Part shown: one piece after another, positions 34,407-42,197 of the stretch | How positions within the stretch are numbered: position 1 is the first letter of the stretch | Layout: each line of letters begins with the position of its first letter | NCBI GenBank assembly: GCA_002692725.1 | Contig: NZLU01000067.1 | Location: 186,001 to 250,000 of the forward strand | Direction of reading: 5' to 3' | DNA length: 64,000 bases | Source of the DNA: Ponticaulis sp. | GTDB taxonomy: Bacteria > Pseudomonadota > Alphaproteobacteria > Caulobacterales > Hyphomonadaceae | Position numbers and translations under genes: made by a program | The notes under the pieces: model-generated | Seen by the model: the letters and a program-made list of their open reading frames with translations, nothing else | The model's database searches: none | What the model was told of the DNA's origin: nothing

Positions 34407-36911
34407 TTATGCAGCAGAATGTAGTGATTTCTGTGGAGAATTCGGGTCTTCAGGCATCTTTTTGCCGTTAAACTGACCTTCCAACGCCGCAAGAAGTGTC
34501 TCTGCTTCGAAATCGTCAGACTTCACAAACATACCACTTCTGATTTCGTCAACGGAGTCCTTCCCGATGAAGAAGAACTTCAGGTGAGATGGTATTTCTA
34601 TTGAATTTATTCTTCTGACTAATTCATCATTATCTGAAGAGCCAATAGCGGCATGATGGCGGCCGGACTTAACCTCGTCGACAAAACCATCTATTTCACC
34701 AAAAATTGAAACTTCTTTCACTTCATCTTTGAAGAAGGCCTCAAGAACAAACTTCTGCATCATATCAGTCTCAAATATAATCAGACTGACATCCTCAAGA
34801 CTGGAAACAGCAGTCGCAATTTCGGCGTCGCCATCCTCCGAACCCTCCACGTCCACAACCTGAACAGGCAGTGGGACATCCATGATAAACTCCGACCCCT
34901 GGCCCATCTCGCTCTTCACATGGATGTCACCGCCCATGGCCTGACAGAAGTTTGAACAGATCGATAATCCCAATCCAGTGCCTGAAAATTTACGGGTCAT
35001 CGCGCTATCCACCTGGTGGAAGGGCTTGAAGATATTTTCATGCTCGTCAGCCGGAATTCCGATACCCGTATCGCGTACGCTGAGTTTGAAGTGTCCCCGC
35101 TCCATATCGTAGCTTGCCTGCACGGTGATCGAACCTTCAGAGGTAAATTTGGTCGCGTTGGACAGGAGATTGAACAGGATCTGCCGAAGACGCTGTTCGT
35201 CACCTATCACCCAGTCCGGACAATTGCTGGCATCCAGTTCGAATTTCAGGCCCTTCTGGGCGATTTCATCGCTCCAGAGCAGACCGACCTCATCAAGGAG
35301 CTTTCGCAACTCGACAGAGCCGGTCTCGAGAGAAACCTTTCCAGTTTCGATCTTCGCAACATCCAGAAGGTCATCAACAATTGCCTTCATGGACTTGCCC
35401 GCCGTCTGGACCACTTTCAGACGATCGCGCAGATCCGCCGCCAGGGACTGGTCCTGCAGGATAACCTGAGACATGCCGAGAATACCGTTCAACGGTGTCC
35501 GGATTTCATGCGATGTCGTCGCCAGGAATTCTGTCTTCGCTTTATTGGCTTTTTCGAGCAGCTTATTGGTGTCGTTCAGCTTGTCATTCACTCGACCAAT
35601 CGCGTCGCGGCTGCGCCGCATGGACAAATAACCCATCGTGACAAAGCCCAGCACCAGCAGACCACCAATTGCCAAAGCCCCGAACAAGAGGTTTCTTTGC
35701 CTCTGACGCGCTTCTGCGACCTGAATATCCTGCTGAAGCCGCATTTGTTCGATTTGTAATTCCTGGTTCGCAAAGTTGAATTGCGCGGCCTTAAGGGCGT
35801 TGTTCGTCTCGGTCGCGAGGCTCAGCGCCTCATCCTCCAGACGTTTAAACGCCTGAAGATGCTGAAATGCCTGCGCGTAACGCCCTCGCTGCTGATAGAT
35901 ATGAAAGGCCAGCTCATGCATATCGCGGTAAGGCATGGGCGTTGTGGTGAGGTCTTCGCCTTCAAATGTACGGTCCATCAGAATGACTGCCGTGGTCAGA
36001 TCCCCGCGCTCTGATGCGATTTCGGCTTTCACCCCCCAGAGAAACCGTTCCCATCCGGCCATTTGGCCCTCAGGCGCGAGTGCCAGTCCGCGGTCTGCCA
36101 TCTCTTCGGCAATTTCGAGATTTCCGGCTAACACCTGGGTGTGGGCCAGATTGGTCAGAATGCGTGCCAGATAATAGTCGGGAGCGCCCATCGTCCCGGC
36201 TAGGTCGAGCGCTTTCTGATAATAACTCGCGGCTTCGTCAAACCGCTCCATTCCGCGCAGCACATTGCCGGTATTATTATAGGTCACAAGCAGCGTACCG
36301 GGGTCCTCATCGAACACTTCAGTCGCCCGCTCATAATATCGGAAGGCCTGATCAAAGACCCGCGCGCCAGAATGAATATCCCCCAGTTTCTGGAGGGCAA
36401 TGCTCTGATATCGGCGATCATCCAGCTCGACATAATTATCGTAAGCGGCCTGAAAGCTTTCCAGAGCCGTCTGGATATCGCCGAGACTCTGGGAAATTCG
36501 CCCCAGCGTCATCAGCATGTCTGCACGCAGTTTCTGCTCGGCTTCGCTGTCTTCGATAATCGCCAGAGCTTTTTCGATGATTGGCAACGCATCGCCAGCT
36601 GAGTTCATTCGGTTAAGCGCTTCAGCCTGAAGCCAATAGGCTGTTGCCAACGAACGCGTCCGATCCTCAGTCGGCGCATTTGGTGGCACCAGCCGTTCAG
36701 CCTCTTGAGCAGATGCAAGCGCATCCTGCGGCGCACTTGTTATTGCCCCGCGCGATGCCGCAATCACTGCGTCAAATTCCGTCCAGTCCACGGATGGGGA
36801 TCCCGGAATACGGGAATCGGCGGGATCGACGGAAAAGGCATGGGGAGACAACGCCGTAAGCGCGCACGCCAACAGAAGGAGTTTTCCCGAACGAACAATG
36901 ATATTCTGCAT
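34407..36911 (-). CDS. TPR-sensor histidine kinase with degenerate C-terminal receiver
   Basis: 834 residues: signal peptide (1-27), a periplasmic region with about six TPR units (about 60-370), and a coiled coil. One membrane helix (about 407-428) follows, then HisKA with FLATTSHEIRTPLNG (His468). HATPase motifs are LFNLLSNATKFTSEG, DTGIGIP and GTGLGLSICSNFC (about 550-685). The last about 110 residues look like a receiver, but the phosphoacceptor strand reads HHAAIGSSDND rather than carrying a conserved Asp and the motif is otherwise poor. It signals by autophosphorylation, probably towards the single-domain regulator 79 bp downstream. The signal peptide with TPRs suggests that it senses a periplasmic protein or complex. 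Confidence 0.85.
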   Translation of the reverse strand: MQNIIVRSGKLLLLACALTALSPHAFSVDPADSRIPGSPSVDWTEFDAVIAASRGAITSAPQDALASAQEAERLVPPNAPTEDRTRSLATAYWLQAEALNRMNSAGDALPIIEKALAIIEDSEAEQKLRADMLMTLGRISQSLGDIQTALESFQAAYDNYVELDDRRYQSIALQKLGDIHSGARVFDQAFRYYERATEVFDEDPGTLLVTYNNTGNVLRGMERFDEAASYYQKALDLAGTMGAPDYYLARILTNLAHTQVLAGNLEIAEEMADRGLALAPEGQMAGWERFLWGVKAEIASERGDLTTAVILMDRTFEGEDLTTTPMPYRDMHELAFHIYQQRGRYAQAFQHLQAFKRLEDEALSLATETNNALKAAQFNFANQELQIEQMRLQQDIQVAEARQRQRNLLFGALAIGGLLVLGFVTMGYLSMRRSRDAIGRVNDKLNDTNKLLEKANKAKTEFLATTSHEIRTPLNGILGMSQVILQDQSLAADLRDRLKVVQTAGKSMKAIVDDLLDVAKIETGKVSLETGSVELRKLLDEVGLLWSDEIAQKGLKFELDASNCPDWVIGDEQRLRQILFNLLSNATKFTSEGSITVQASYDMERGHFKLSVRDTGIGIPADEHENIFKPFHQVDSAMTRKFSGTGLGLSICSNFCQAMGGDIHVKSEMGQGSEFIMDVPLPVQVVDVEGSEDGDAEIATAVSSLEDVSLIIFETDMMQKFVLEAFFKDEVKEVSIFGEIDGFVDEVKSGRHHAAIGSSDNDELVRRINSIEIPSHLKFFFIGKDSVDEIRSGMFVKSDDFEAETLLAALEGQFNGKKMPEDPNSPQKSLHSAA

Positions 36912-37061: not shown

Positions 37062-40000
37062 TCAGAAGCGGAACGAAATACGACCGCCCGTTACGTTCTT
37101 GGGATCAAACAAATCATCAGACGACGCACCGGTGTTCAGATCGGTCCGCGTAAAGGCTGAAATCTCGCCCATACCGTCCATGATGCTGGCCCCATAGCTG
37201 AGCTCCAGATCGAGTTCCCGCCCCGTATCCTGAAGCGCCCAGGCTTGAGTGACCTGACCGAGCTCTCCGGTTTCGCGGTTGGTGACCTCAAGACTGGTGA
37301 ATTCGAAACCACCTTGCTCAACCCGCAGAGGCTGCGACAGGGTGAGGCGCGCCGTGTCTGCGTCGCCGAACACACCTGTTTTCCGCAGGCCGACAGCAAA
37401 TGCCGATGACCGCAGCCCGTCTTCGTTGAGGCTGAGGAAGCCGCTGTCGAATTCCGTGGCGCGCGTCTCTGCCAGTGTCGCAGAGGCGCCAAGCGCGAGG
37501 CCGAACGGCAGATCCACATCCGTTCCGAGTGTTACAGCATCTGTCGTGCTGCCGCCGTCAAGCGACAGGAAGCCAGAGCCCTGATCACCCAGAAGGCTGT
37601 CACGCTCATGCAGCTGGGTATAACCCAGAGTGAAGTTGACCGAGTCCGTAGCCTGATACGACATGGAGACACTTGCCGCCTGCGCAGCATAGTCCTGCAG
37701 TCCATTCGGATTATAGGTCCGGACATCCGTCAGCGGATCAATGTAAGAATGGTCGTCACTGGTCTCGCTAACGCTTGCCGTCAGTGAAAGCGTCTCAGTC
37801 AGCGGCATCAGGCTGGCAAAATAAGTGCCGCCGGATGCGAGGCCCAGAATTGGGTTCACGCCACCTGTGTCACTGTCAAAGTCCGAATAGAAGCCGAACA
37901 CCTGGCTCGCATTAAGTTGCGCTGCGCCATCACCATGACCGAAGCGGAATTCTGTGCCCGACATATCACGACGCAGAACCACATCAGTCTGGAATGGAAG
38001 ATCACCCTCACGAATGTCTGTTCCGGGCGTGTGCGGTGCAGCGTGCATACTCAGCGACCACTCACCGGTCAGTCCGAGATTGGCTTCAAAGCTCTGAACA
38101 TCTCCAAAATTGGAGCCGCCGGTCGCCCAGTCTGTGAAGCGCTGGTATAGATGGCGCTGGAATTTACGATCGTGCTCTACGCCGTCAATTTCGCTAACCT
38201 GACCGAACAATTGCGTCGACAGCGGAATGCGGAAATCGCGGAATGTATCTCCGACACGCTCGAGACCAACCAGATAGGCACCGTTTTCTTCGAACTTGAT
38301 CCGGTCACCGCGCATATAGGCGCGCCCAACCCACTCCGCGGACCTCGCCCCTCTCAGGCGTCCATCAGCGGATCTTGAATAATAGAAGCTAAGATTGTTC
38401 CAATCGAGCGGAGACAGAGCAGCTTCGACATCCAGCATACCCCAGCCATACACATCGTCGACACCTTCTTCGCCGAGATCTCGGGCAGATTGCAGGATTA
38501 CATCGACAGTTTCATCGCCATGGCTCTTCCACCACGGCCAGGCACCATGAATGAGAGCCGCTGTGCCCGACACCAAAGGCGCGGCAAAGGACGTACCCGC
38601 CTGACGCGTGACTCCGCCCTCACCGTCCGAAACGAGGATGAACTCGCCTGGCGCGACGATGAACCGGTTCATCAGCAAATTGTCGTCCGTGCACATACCA
38701 TTGATCGTGACGCAGGCATCACCCGGCGTGTTCGACCAACCTGCGATCTCACCATCAATCCCGGTAGACCCAACAAGGATCAGACGCTCAAGCGATGCCT
38801 GATCGCCCCAGGCCACATCATCAATCTGTGTTGCGCCCTCATTACCGGCCGCCTTCACAAAAATCGTGCCTTCTGAGGCCGGATCAGAAACCACAGAGCC
38901 AATAATGCTGGACCAGTCCTCAGACAGCACCGTACCGGGCGTACCGAGCGACATGTTGATCACGCGAGCGCCGTTATCGACAAGCGCGTTGATACCTGTC
39001 GTGATGTCCGCCCAGCCGGCTGTGTTGGTTTCGTCAAACGGATTGTAAATCGCCACTCCGGCATTCGGCGCGATACCCATAATGCCCCAGCCATCATGTG
39101 GCGCAATCATCAGACTGACGACTGCAGAGCCGTGCCCGTCATTTTCATCTGTTTCATAGCCGCCCTGATAGACGACGTTGTGAGAGAGCAGGGTCTCGTC
39201 GGTGACACCAAAGTCCAACAGACCAATAACAGCCTGCGTATTATAGTCGTGATCCTGGGTAAGCGCTGGCGACCAATTGGTCTCAATCATCCAGCTATCG
39301 ACCCGGTCAATGCCAGTGTAGAGCATCAGGCCGTCATACCAGTCCACGAAGAACTGCACGCGCTCGATCGCCGACAGATTGGCGAGAGTCGACGCGTCAG
39401 ATGGATCAATTCCGTATTTATCGAAAATATCCTTCGCGAACCCGGCATAGAAATCCTGGCGCGTCATCAGCGCCACCGGGATGGCAAACTGATCCTGGCT
39501 CATATTGTAGAAAGTGCCGAGCTGGCTCAGCAGGTCAGCATACTGGGCCTCGGTCTCAGGACCAAAACTTTCCAGATCGCCCCAGAAACTTTCGAGGTCA
39601 CCCCAGAAACTCTCAAGATCACCCCAGAAGCTTTCAAGGTCGCCCCAATAGGTCGAGATACCACCCTCAAAACTCTCAAGATCACCCCAGAAGCTTTCAA
39701 GATCGCCCCAGCTTGCATCAAGATTACCGTTGAAGCTTTCCAGGTCTCCCCAGAAGCTCTCAAGGTCACCCCAGCTCGGGTCGAGTGAGCCATAAAAATT
39801 CGAGTAGTCGCCATCATGGCCGACGCGCTCATTATGAAAGGTTTCCAGATTTCCCCAGAAACTCTCCAGATCGCCCCAGCTCGCAGTCGCGTCGCCGTTA
39901 AAGCTCTCCAGGTCACCCCAGAAACTTTCGAGATCGCCCCAGAACGGAACTTCCGAGCCGGAGAAACTTTCAAGATCACCCCAGAAGCTTTCCAGGTCGC

Positions 40001-40370
40001 CCCACATGGCGCCGTTCTGACCTTCAAAACTCTCGAGATCGCCCCAGAAGCTCTCAAGGTCGCCCCAATAGGCGTCAATACCGCCATGGAAGGATTCCAG
40101 ATCGCCCCAGAAACTTTCGAGGTCGCCCCAGAAGCTTTCCAGATCACCCCAACTCGCCTGATTTTCGCCCTCAAAACTCTCGAGATCGCCCCAGAAGCTC
40201 TCAAGGTCGCCCCAGAAACTCTCCAGATCACCCCAGTGTGGCGTCGCGCCTGCAGGAGCGCTGGAAATCTCACTTCCAGACACTGAAATAGCCACATCGT
40301 CAGCAAACATGGCAGGCGTGCTGAGCAGCAAACCCGACAGTGCGACAGATGAATACAAAACTCGTTTCAT
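37062..40370 (-). CDS. S8 subtilisin-like autotransporter with a WGDLESF heptad array
   Basis: 1102 residues. Signal peptide (1-23, after FA). Residues 46-269 form an uninterrupted heptad array: 21 exact copies of WGDLESF, a WGNLETF and a YGSLDPS copy, and nine variable heptads, mainly of form xGxxxxx. The S8 catalytic domain follows (about 378-640) with Asp386 in LLDFGV, His413 in DGHGSA, oxyanion Asn510 in KAAGNEG and Ser594 in AGTSFAAP. The C-terminal region of about 280 residues has alternating hydrophobic strands and ends in GGRISFRF, as in an autotransporter barrel. The expected location is the outer membrane with the protease outside. The ATG at 40370 has GAGGACTTTGTC upstream. The order of array-then-protease is unusual, as described in the findings. 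Confidence 0.85.
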   Translation of the reverse strand: MKRVLYSSVALSGLLLSTPAMFADDVAISVSGSEISSAPAGATPHWGDLESFWGDLESFWGDLESFEGENQASWGDLESFWGDLESFWGDLESFHGGIDAYWGDLESFWGDLESFEGQNGAMWGDLESFWGDLESFSGSEVPFWGDLESFWGDLESFNGDATASWGDLESFWGNLETFHNERVGHDGDYSNFYGSLDPSWGDLESFWGDLESFNGNLDASWGDLESFWGDLESFEGGISTYWGDLESFWGDLESFWGDLESFWGDLESFGPETEAQYADLLSQLGTFYNMSQDQFAIPVALMTRQDFYAGFAKDIFDKYGIDPSDASTLANLSAIERVQFFVDWYDGLMLYTGIDRVDSWMIETNWSPALTQDHDYNTQAVIGLLDFGVTDETLLSHNVVYQGGYETDENDGHGSAVVSLMIAPHDGWGIMGIAPNAGVAIYNPFDETNTAGWADITTGINALVDNGARVINMSLGTPGTVLSEDWSSIIGSVVSDPASEGTIFVKAAGNEGATQIDDVAWGDQASLERLILVGSTGIDGEIAGWSNTPGDACVTINGMCTDDNLLMNRFIVAPGEFILVSDGEGGVTRQAGTSFAAPLVSGTAALIHGAWPWWKSHGDETVDVILQSARDLGEEGVDDVYGWGMLDVEAALSPLDWNNLSFYYSRSADGRLRGARSAEWVGRAYMRGDRIKFEENGAYLVGLERVGDTFRDFRIPLSTQLFGQVSEIDGVEHDRKFQRHLYQRFTDWATGGSNFGDVQSFEANLGLTGEWSLSMHAAPHTPGTDIREGDLPFQTDVVLRRDMSGTEFRFGHGDGAAQLNASQVFGFYSDFDSDTGGVNPILGLASGGTYFASLMPLTETLSLTASVSETSDDHSYIDPLTDVRTYNPNGLQDYAAQAASVSMSYQATDSVNFTLGYTQLHERDSLLGDQGSGFLSLDGGSTTDAVTLGTDVDLPFGLALGASATLAETRATEFDSGFLSLNEDGLRSSAFAVGLRKTGVFGDADTARLTLSQPLRVEQGGFEFTSLEVTNRETGELGQVTQAWALQDTGRELDLELSYGASIMDGMGEISAFTRTDLNTGASSDDLFDPKNVTGGRISFRF
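39564..40235 (-). repeat. In-frame 21-bp repeat array coding for WGDLESF heptads
   Basis: 672 bp, 32 heptads in strict phase. Copies differ at silent positions (for example different Asp, Leu, Glu, Ser and Phe codons) while the peptide stays identical. Larger units of 63 bp (two WGDLESF plus one variable heptad) recur. Read from the plus strand the array also opens long false frames. Confidence 0.95.
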
Positions 40371-40799: not shown

Positions 40800-42197
40800 T
40801 TATTGTTGGCCACGCGCTCGCAAAAGACGATTGATGGTCACATACTCGTTCAGGTCCACAGCGCCGTCAGAGTTCATATCCATACGATCGAAACCGGCCT
40901 TCATGCGCTGGCCGAGCATGCCTTTCAGCTCGTCTGTCGTGAGTCGGCCATCAATATTGTCGTCCATTGCCGTGAACATGCGCGTCTCATCGAGCTCTGC
41001 CATCTGATTGTCCAGGCGATTGTCAGTCGTCTCGCCTTTAAACCGGAAGCTGAGTGAGGTGTAGAGCATCTCTTCAAAGCTCTGATCGCCCCAGGTAATG
41101 ACGGCATTCGGATCCGGGTTGGCGTCGTTGGATTTCGAATTGTCATAGGTGTAGTCGGCAATCAGCTTGGATCCGGCCGGAATGGCAATGGGCTCTTCCC
41201 ACTCATATCCACGCTGCCAGTTGAAGTCATAACGTGGCAGGCTGAGAAGCATTTCTTCGCTGCCATCCGGATAGCGAATTCTCAGATTAGACGCATAGCC
41301 GCGATAATGCGCATGCGGAAAGGCTGAAAGCAGCTCAGCATCATATGGGAACTCCATATATGCTGTTTCCGTATGACGGGCCGCACCGGGTGGGATTTCG
41401 ATACTGGCGTCAAGAATAACGGCAGTGCGGTTCAGCAATTCCGGTTGATCCTGGAAGTAAAAGCCGATCTGCGTCACGTCTTCGACTTCTTTGCCATATG
41501 GCGTGTAATGAACCTGGAAGCCAATCGCACCACCGGCCGGGAAAGGAACACCGGAGTTTTCAGGTGCCACATTCGATTCTGCGCCGACGGCATATCCGCC
41601 TGTAGAGAATTCCCAGCGCGAGGTTGAACCCACCCCATCTTCCGGAACTTCAGACATATATCCGGACAGAACGTGATGAACGACTTGCCGGTTACCGGCA
41701 CGAATGGTGGTCGCTTTCAGCCATTTGTCTTCTGTCAGCGGATTTTCGACGATTGGATGAACATAATCCACCACGCCGTTTGCGGGCACAGTGTATGCCG
41801 GCAGGGTCAGAAGAAGGTCAGGCTCGCCCAGCGGCCAGTCAGGCGCAACATGCTCCACGGCCTGAAGCGGATCTTCGCCTTCGCCACGTGGCGCACCGGC
41901 TTCAACCCAATGCACAAGCGTTTTGATTTCATCATTTGTAAGCGACCGGTCGGCGTGGAAGGTGCCGATTTCCGGGTCCGCATGCCAGGGCGGCATGCGA
42001 TCCGTCCGGATCACTTCGCGGATCATCGGCGCCCAGCCCTGAACAGTCTGATAGCTGTCCATAGCGAACGGGCCGATGCCATTTGGCTGGTGACATTCTA
42101 CGCATTTCGACTCGAGGATGGGAGCGACCTCGGTCGAATACGAGATTTGCTCAGCTGCTAGACTTTTTTTTTGCGTTCGGGGAAGTTGACCATGCAA
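40800..42197 (-). CDS. Cytochrome c / copper monooxygenase-like / EF-hand part of a split protein
   Basis: About 450 codons following the A9 run. In order: c-type heme site CVECH (near residue 35), and RTDRMPPWHADPEIG typical of this cytochrome module. A domain like copper type II ascorbate-dependent monooxygenases (PHM) follows with His pairs in RQVVHHVLSGYM, FQVHYTPYG and AFPHAHYRGY. Two EF-hand loops lie at the end (DDNIDGRLTTDE and DMNSDGAVDLNE). The only in-frame start upstream is a TTG at 42197 with no ribosome site, so it is best read as the continuation of the gene at 42158-42889 in the -1 frame. Periplasmic redox enzyme; substrate unknown. Confidence 0.78.
   Translation of the reverse strand: MHGQLPRTQKKSLAAEQISYSTEVAPILESKCVECHQPNGIGPFAMDSYQTVQGWAPMIREVIRTDRMPPWHADPEIGTFHADRSLTNDEIKTLVHWVEAGAPRGEGEDPLQAVEHVAPDWPLGEPDLLLTLPAYTVPANGVVDYVHPIVENPLTEDKWLKATTIRAGNRQVVHHVLSGYMSEVPEDGVGSTSRWEFSTGGYAVGAESNVAPENSGVPFPAGGAIGFQVHYTPYGKEVEDVTQIGFYFQDQPELLNRTAVILDASIEIPPGAARHTETAYMEFPYDAELLSAFPHAHYRGYASNLRIRYPDGSEEMLLSLPRYDFNWQRGYEWEEPIAIPAGSKLIADYTYDNSKSNDANPDPNAVITWGDQSFEEMLYTSLSFRFKGETTDNRLDNQMAELDETRMFTAMDDNIDGRLTTDELKGMLGQRMKAGFDRMDMNSDGAVDLNEYVTINRLLRARGQQ

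Follow-up and report, generated by a model that had tools for sequence, protein, structure and literature searches.

Peptide pheromones are standard signals among Gram-positive bacteria and are rare in Gram-negatives. In the Agr system of staphylococci, the peptide gene lies beside that of a histidine kinase whose N-terminal sensor is variable. Subtilases are also known as S8 autotransporters such as SphB1 and NalP, which consist of a subtilase passenger and a C-terminal barrel; to our knowledge, none of these has a heptad array or a paired TPR sensor. The RRNPP(A) systems of Firmicutes (Rap-Phr, PlcR-PapR and PrgX-cCF10) resemble the locus described here in that a TPR domain is presumed to read a short linear peptide, about 5-8 residues long, from an adjacent gene. 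In Bacillus, the ComX peptide gene is found beside that of its kinase ComP, which has a variable N-terminal sensor and a conserved cytoplasmic part, and pherotypes are distinguished (PMC4008528). Fungal KEX2-processed repeat proteins, including the yeast alpha-pheromone precursor, hold many near-identical short cores with spacers and protease-defined ends (PMC9769878).

The locus lies in a window of 64,000 nucleotides from Ponticaulis sp. (contig NZLU01000067.1, positions 186,001 to 250,000). All coordinates below refer to this window, and all features are on its minus strand. Outside subscription papers and preprints, our literature search found no description of the repeats or of the gene pair.

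A heptad array in a subtilase and predicted autotransporter

The open reading frame at 37062..40370 has an ATG start and encodes an array-bearing subtilase and predicted autotransporter of 1102 aa (Pfam S8). Its translation starts with a hydrophobic N-terminus, MKRVLYSSVALSGLLLSTPAMFA, which is a putative signal peptide (residues 1-23; 40302..40370), and continues with the array (residues 46-269; 39564..40235), a helical domain that leads from array to protease (residues ~270-375, or 239-374 in the model; 39246..39563), the catalytic domain (residues 380-644; 38439..39233) and a C-terminal region with a predicted beta-barrel and a terminal Phe (residues ~790-1102; 37065..38003). That the protein is a subtilase, as stated in the initial annotation, is confirmed by a PF00082 match to residues 380-644 (E 7.8e-33; 114.5 bits against a gathering score of 21.8). 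The Asp386/His413/Ser594 triad is invariant among 30 aligned homologues, and the catalytic domain reached a Z of 32 to subtilisins in a fold search. The autotransporter assignment is supported by the predicted barrel, for which the whole AlphaFold2 model, as a prediction only, gives about 13 strands at residues ~849-1100, although the Pfam autotransporter barrel PF03797 did not match the protein at E up to 1. The EprS model NF051851 scored 33 against a cutoff of 1700. The helical domain, which was delimited by AlphaFold2 and alignments, is modelled as all-helical with pLDDT mostly 75-90, and is family-specific with conserved columns in two homologue alignments. A sequence search against solved structures matched only the subtilase domain among the matches listed, and in a fold search with the whole model subtilisins filled the results, which were uninformative on the array, the helical domain and the barrel. 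The product of the upstream gene (40800-42197) has EF-hands at its C-terminus and gave weak matches of haem/cytochrome and copper mono-oxygenase type.

The array, which is found once in the genome, comprises exactly the 32 consecutive heptads that had been counted before, with 21 exact copies of WGDLESF, the proposed multicopy signal peptide, one WGNLETF and ten variable heptads or interruptions. The 21 identical copies are encoded by 19 distinct 21-mers, and the mean pairwise difference between copies is 0.10, 0.10 and 3.18 of 7 at codon positions 1, 2 and 3. The silent differences noted in the initial annotation are thereby borne out, and a fixed peptide with near-saturated third positions excludes chance and recent slippage. 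The annotation's proposal of selection on the peptide is strongly supported, as the same pattern was found in 21 arrays tested (0-0.5 differences at positions 1 and 2, and 1.3-4.6 of 7 at position 3). The proposed 21-residue superperiod holds approximately but not strictly, since the runs are irregular in length (3+1, 3+1, 2+1, 2+1, 2+1, a 21-residue interruption, 2+1, 2+1, 4). Homologue sequences delimit the interruption, HNERVGHDGDYSNFYGSLDPS, at residues 179-199 (39774..39836), and a related one of YGSLDPS or YYGLLDP type occurs inside the array of all Ponticaulis homologues. AlphaFold2 gave a block-mean pLDDT of 27-44 over residues 1-240 and no confident fold up to about residue 243, i.e., the array is predicted to be unstructured, which lends no support to the solenoid, amyloid stalk or calcium-binding domain suggested earlier. 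Of the further suggestion of a propeptide, the position upstream of the protease stands, but the segment adjoining the protease is the separate helical domain. The decisive facts lay beyond the reach of the initial annotation, namely the repeat wording that varies by species, the conserved neighbouring TPR sensor and the co-divergence of array and sensor.

Homologues were detected in 7/7 genomes of the genus Ponticaulis, in 13/105 genomes of the family Hyphomonadaceae and, more thinly, in other alphaproteobacterial families (29/398 genomes of one family, 9/69 of one genus and 22/398 in an order sample). Every homologue read has the N-terminal array, and each species has its own repeat, with about 26 types across species (WGSLDTF, WGNLDSF, WGNLDTF, WGSVSPF, WGDIDAF, YGIIRPF, YRNIGAF, TGYIRAF, TGFIRAF, VGHIRTF, YGFIIPV and others). 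Arrays are mostly uniform within a gene and loose in some genera (L120-L124, L128-L130); they hold from about 5 to 30 copies, either head to tail or as a fixed heptad alternating with variable spacers. Copy number appears free to change, since the arrays of the close species L049 and L050 show a difference of 28 residues, with 30 exact copies against 27. The arrays of L045 and L046 each use TCN as well as AGY codons for the repeated Ser at heptad position 3, a mixture that duplicating a single unit would not yield; together with the silent variation, this indicates a peptide kept constant under selection. Judged from the sequences, the repeat wording shifts between species as a whole, and selection holds the peptide constant. 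Recent slippage or gene conversion was considered as an origin of the uniform arrays and ruled out by the synonymous saturation and the mixed Ser codon families.

Positions within the heptad differ in how strongly they are constrained. Position 4 is I, L or V in 26/26 repeat types, position 6 is P, A, S or T in 25/26 and position 7 is F in 24/26, and the largest variation between species is found at positions 3 and 5. Taken as P4, P2 and P1, positions 4, 6 and 7 fit the subtilisin preference [ILV]-x-[PAST]-F; Ala-Ala-Pro-Phe is the textbook subtilisin substrate, and the fold matches include 1bh6, a subtilisin with an Ala-Pro-Phe inhibitor. The constant residues would thus meet the demands of the protease, and specificity could reside in the variable ones.

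The adjacent TPR sensor

The next gene (34407..36911) encodes the proposed receptor, a TPR sensor histidine kinase of 834 aa (Pfam TPR, HisKA and HATPase_c). AlphaFold2 models its TPR domain (residues 44-341; 35889..36782) as an all-helical TPR solenoid with a mean pLDDT of 87.6, and Foldseek matched the domain to LGN, KLC1 and Rap TPR proteins, including RapH and peptide-bound RapF. By hydrophobicity, a transmembrane segment is located at residues 410-428 (35628..35684), and 11/11 sensors checked have one at about the same position. This segment and a hydrophobic segment at the N-terminus predict that the TPR part is periplasmic. The output module, HisKA and HATPase by Pfam, is found at 34866..35540.

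The pairing of the two genes is conserved, with a membrane-anchored TPR sensor adjoining the protease gene in 56/62 loci. Among the six exceptions, contig ends truncate L139, L143 and L144; no sensor was seen in the 13 kb of L153 that were read; L156 is an additional protease copy in a genome that also has a complete locus; and the sensor of L159 is found elsewhere in its genome. At L159/L055 (G084), which has a WGEIYAF array, the protease is read in two frames, due to either a frameshift or a sequencing error. Within the family, the sensor is present in 13/13 genomes with the protease and in 1/92 without it (14 in total).

The output of the sensor is exchanged in several genera (e.g., L120), where TPR-GGDEF-EAL replaces the TPR-kinase and the array protease is retained. 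Loci outside Ponticaulis often have a third gene, which encodes a separate GGDEF/EAL protein. One locus (L191, genome G1159) holds two complete systems of array protease and sensor in tandem, each array with its own sensor type: repeats of IRxF type go with a TPR-kinase, and those of YGNIDPF type with TPR-GGDEF-EAL. The arrays in the TPR-GGDEF-EAL genera (L120-L124, L127-L130, L134) tend to be loose and non-uniform, ending in DPF or NPF.

Coupled variation of array and sensor

Three loci with about 93% nucleotide identity were compared, namely L048 (P. koreensis, WGNLDTF) and L049 and L050 (both WGNLDSF). When L048 is aligned with either of the others, identity drops at the array (~79%) and at TPR-N (61-73%, at 7.7-8.4 kb). 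TPR-N spans the initial 210 residues of the TPR domain and is the sensor cassette whose sequence follows the heptad among close relatives in the locus comparisons (residues ~50-255; 36147..36764 in the window). The array and TPR-N are the only drops within the two genes that are common to both comparisons, and L049 vs L050, which share the heptad, show no drop at either place. The two blocks are about 2.7 kb apart with ordinary similarity between them. In codons 45-255 of the kinase gene, amino-acid changes amount to 65/210 for L048/L049 vs 2/210 for L049/L050, and in codons 300-690 to 6/390 vs 14. L048 and L049 have 99% identity in the catalytic domain, yet every repeat is different. This pattern of coupled change, as read from the aligned loci, resembles pherotypes. 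Outside Ponticaulis there was no close pair with clearly different heptads, and the clean swap rests on this one species trio.

The synonymous patterns of L048 and L049 were not retained unit by unit (p 0.22), which suggests that replacement or turnover affected the array as a whole; parallel substitution of the units in place was considered and is unsupported for the same reason. Two further swapped segments were seen within 20 kb in the locus comparisons, which counts against the signal-precursor account given below. In L050, the receiver-like C-terminus of the kinase (codons 690-830; ~9.66-10.0 kb of the locus) is replaced relative to both L048 and L049, with 52 amino-acid changes in ~138 codons against L049, so that the kinase gene contains two swapped segments. 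In G006 (L164), identity is 0.68-0.76 in a gene at ~17-18 kb of the oriented 20-kb region, amid a neighbourhood of ~93%.

The coupling was also found beyond the trio. L045 and L046, which share WGSLDTF, have an identity of 0.71 in TPR-N and 0.67 in the kinase, and the window gene, which has a different heptad, compares with either of them at 0.48-0.49 in TPR-N and 0.65-0.66 in the kinase. In a partial Mantel test over 30 loci, where pairs are non-independent and phylogeny is only roughly controlled, repeat similarity correlated with TPR-N similarity given protease and kinase similarity (r 0.43; 0/2000 permutations), and its correlation with kinase similarity given the protease was r 0.07 (p 0.16). 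Repeat similarity also tracks protease similarity in these loci (r 0.45). The coupled variation of peptide and sensor domain that marks peptide pheromones is thus found here, with exceptions: L132 and L140 share TGYIRAF and have a lower identity in TPR-N (0.66) than in the kinase (0.77), and L047, with the same heptad as L049, has a TPR-N identity of 0.70 to L049 vs 0.67 to L048. Enrichment of the swapped TPR-N substitutions on the concave face was looked for and rejected, as the groove-lining A helices (27/105) are no richer than the B helices (22/76).

A candidate peptide channel and its relation to known systems

A peptide in about twenty identical copies beside a sensor whose input domain varies along with it is probably part of an undescribed Gram-negative peptide-signalling system. 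We consider it likely that the array is, in some form, the ligand of the TPR sensor. With less assurance, we favor the specific reading that a multicopy heptapeptide precursor and the protease that processes it form one protein, with a periplasmic TPR receptor detecting the signal, and we hold the production of free peptides by the fused protease to be somewhat more probable than its absence. The protein would be exported by means of its signal peptide and C-terminal barrel, and the subtilase domain would cut each unit behind its final Phe (F|W), freeing identical heptapeptides, here WGDLESF. The neighbouring histidine kinase would detect these with its periplasmic TPR domain and relay the signal through one transmembrane helix to its output; in related genera, a TPR sensor of this type would drive a GGDEF-EAL c-di-GMP module instead. 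Self-cleavage, release, binding and cell-to-cell signalling are all steps that we infer. A peptide of ~0.8 kDa may pass poorly through porins back to the periplasm. Species-specific peptides with matching changes of the sensor would provide private channels, as with pherotypes.

The nearest rival to this signal-precursor account has the TPR domain recognising the uncut array, while the autotransporter is in the periplasm or at the cell surface, without any free peptide being made; the sensor would then monitor a backlog in export, the activity of the protease or contact between cells. This accounts equally well for the pairing, the co-divergence and the uniform repeats; many identical sites would give avidity, and the predicted periplasmic position of the sensor means that the exported protein would pass it. 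We nevertheless regard it as unlikely, as it leaves both the P4/P2/P1 pattern at the unit ends and the fused active protease unexplained, and it is hard to see what a self-check would gain from wording that differs between species, even if co-evolutionary drift could yield such wording. A structural array, i.e., a stalk, a solenoid or an aggregating surface layer in an operon merely regulated by the sensor, is less probable again. The regular spacing of W, G, L and F would suit it, and fungal repeat peptides such as Ustilago Rep1 form fibrils (PMC9769878), but most of the array has the low pLDDT given above, copies vary from ~5 to 30 with spacers present or absent, and packing would not lead one to expect a coupled change of TPR-N, in another protein, where kinase and protease are 94-99% identical.

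The repeats could instead act on the protease itself, as a propeptide or decoy substrate that inhibits or times the maturation of the subtilase, with only an incidental link to the sensor. Their place before the protease, their match to subtilisin subsites and the correlation of repeat with protease similarity are in line with this. However, an inhibitor should follow its protease, and here the repeat follows the TPR sensor and differs throughout between the nearly identical catalytic domains of L048 and L049, so we give this explanation little credence. Neutral tandem duplication or gene conversion of a repeat without function is highly improbable: the shift in copy number among close relatives would be expected from it, but not the near-saturation of third positions in copies that code for the same amino acids, nor two Ser codon families within one array.

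If the signal-precursor account is true, a peptide channel already exists in many alphaproteobacterial genomes. Its ligand would follow directly from the sequence and could therefore be tested cheaply with synthetic heptapeptides, and the species would form a natural series for joint changes of peptide and receptor specificity. We see roughly even chances for the broadest version, a widespread alphaproteobacterial class of signalling between cells in which one polypeptide is the precursor, protease and exporter of an unmodified, multicopy heptapeptide pheromone, with interchangeable TPR-kinase and TPR-GGDEF-EAL receptors that read it in the periplasm and with swappable pherotype cassettes.

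Compared with known systems, the protein shares with S8 autotransporters such as EprS the subtilase passenger and, by prediction, the C-terminal barrel. In contrast to RRNPP(A), the TPR domain is predicted to be periplasmic, on a transmembrane kinase or GGDEF-EAL protein; the sensor here, a transmembrane HisKA/HATPase protein without HTH, is no cytoplasmic receptor with an HTH or Spo0F-phosphatase head, and the precursor is a protease-fused multicopy array in a Gram-negative host. Unlike in ComQXPA, where ComX is single-copy and prenylated and its receptor polytopic, there are ~20 identical copies and a TPR sensor, and no ComQ prenyl transferase or single-copy ComX was found among the neighbouring genes examined by Pfam. 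The fungal precursors rely on a separate kexin and dibasic sites, whereas here the subtilase is fused, the sites would lie after Phe, the host is bacterial, and no K/R pairs occur between the repeats of the WGDLESF array. By analogy, the system would work like RRNPP, ComX/ComP and the fungal repeat precursors, yet it departs from the defining features of each, and if true it would give bacteria a clear counterpart of the yeast alpha-factor precursor.
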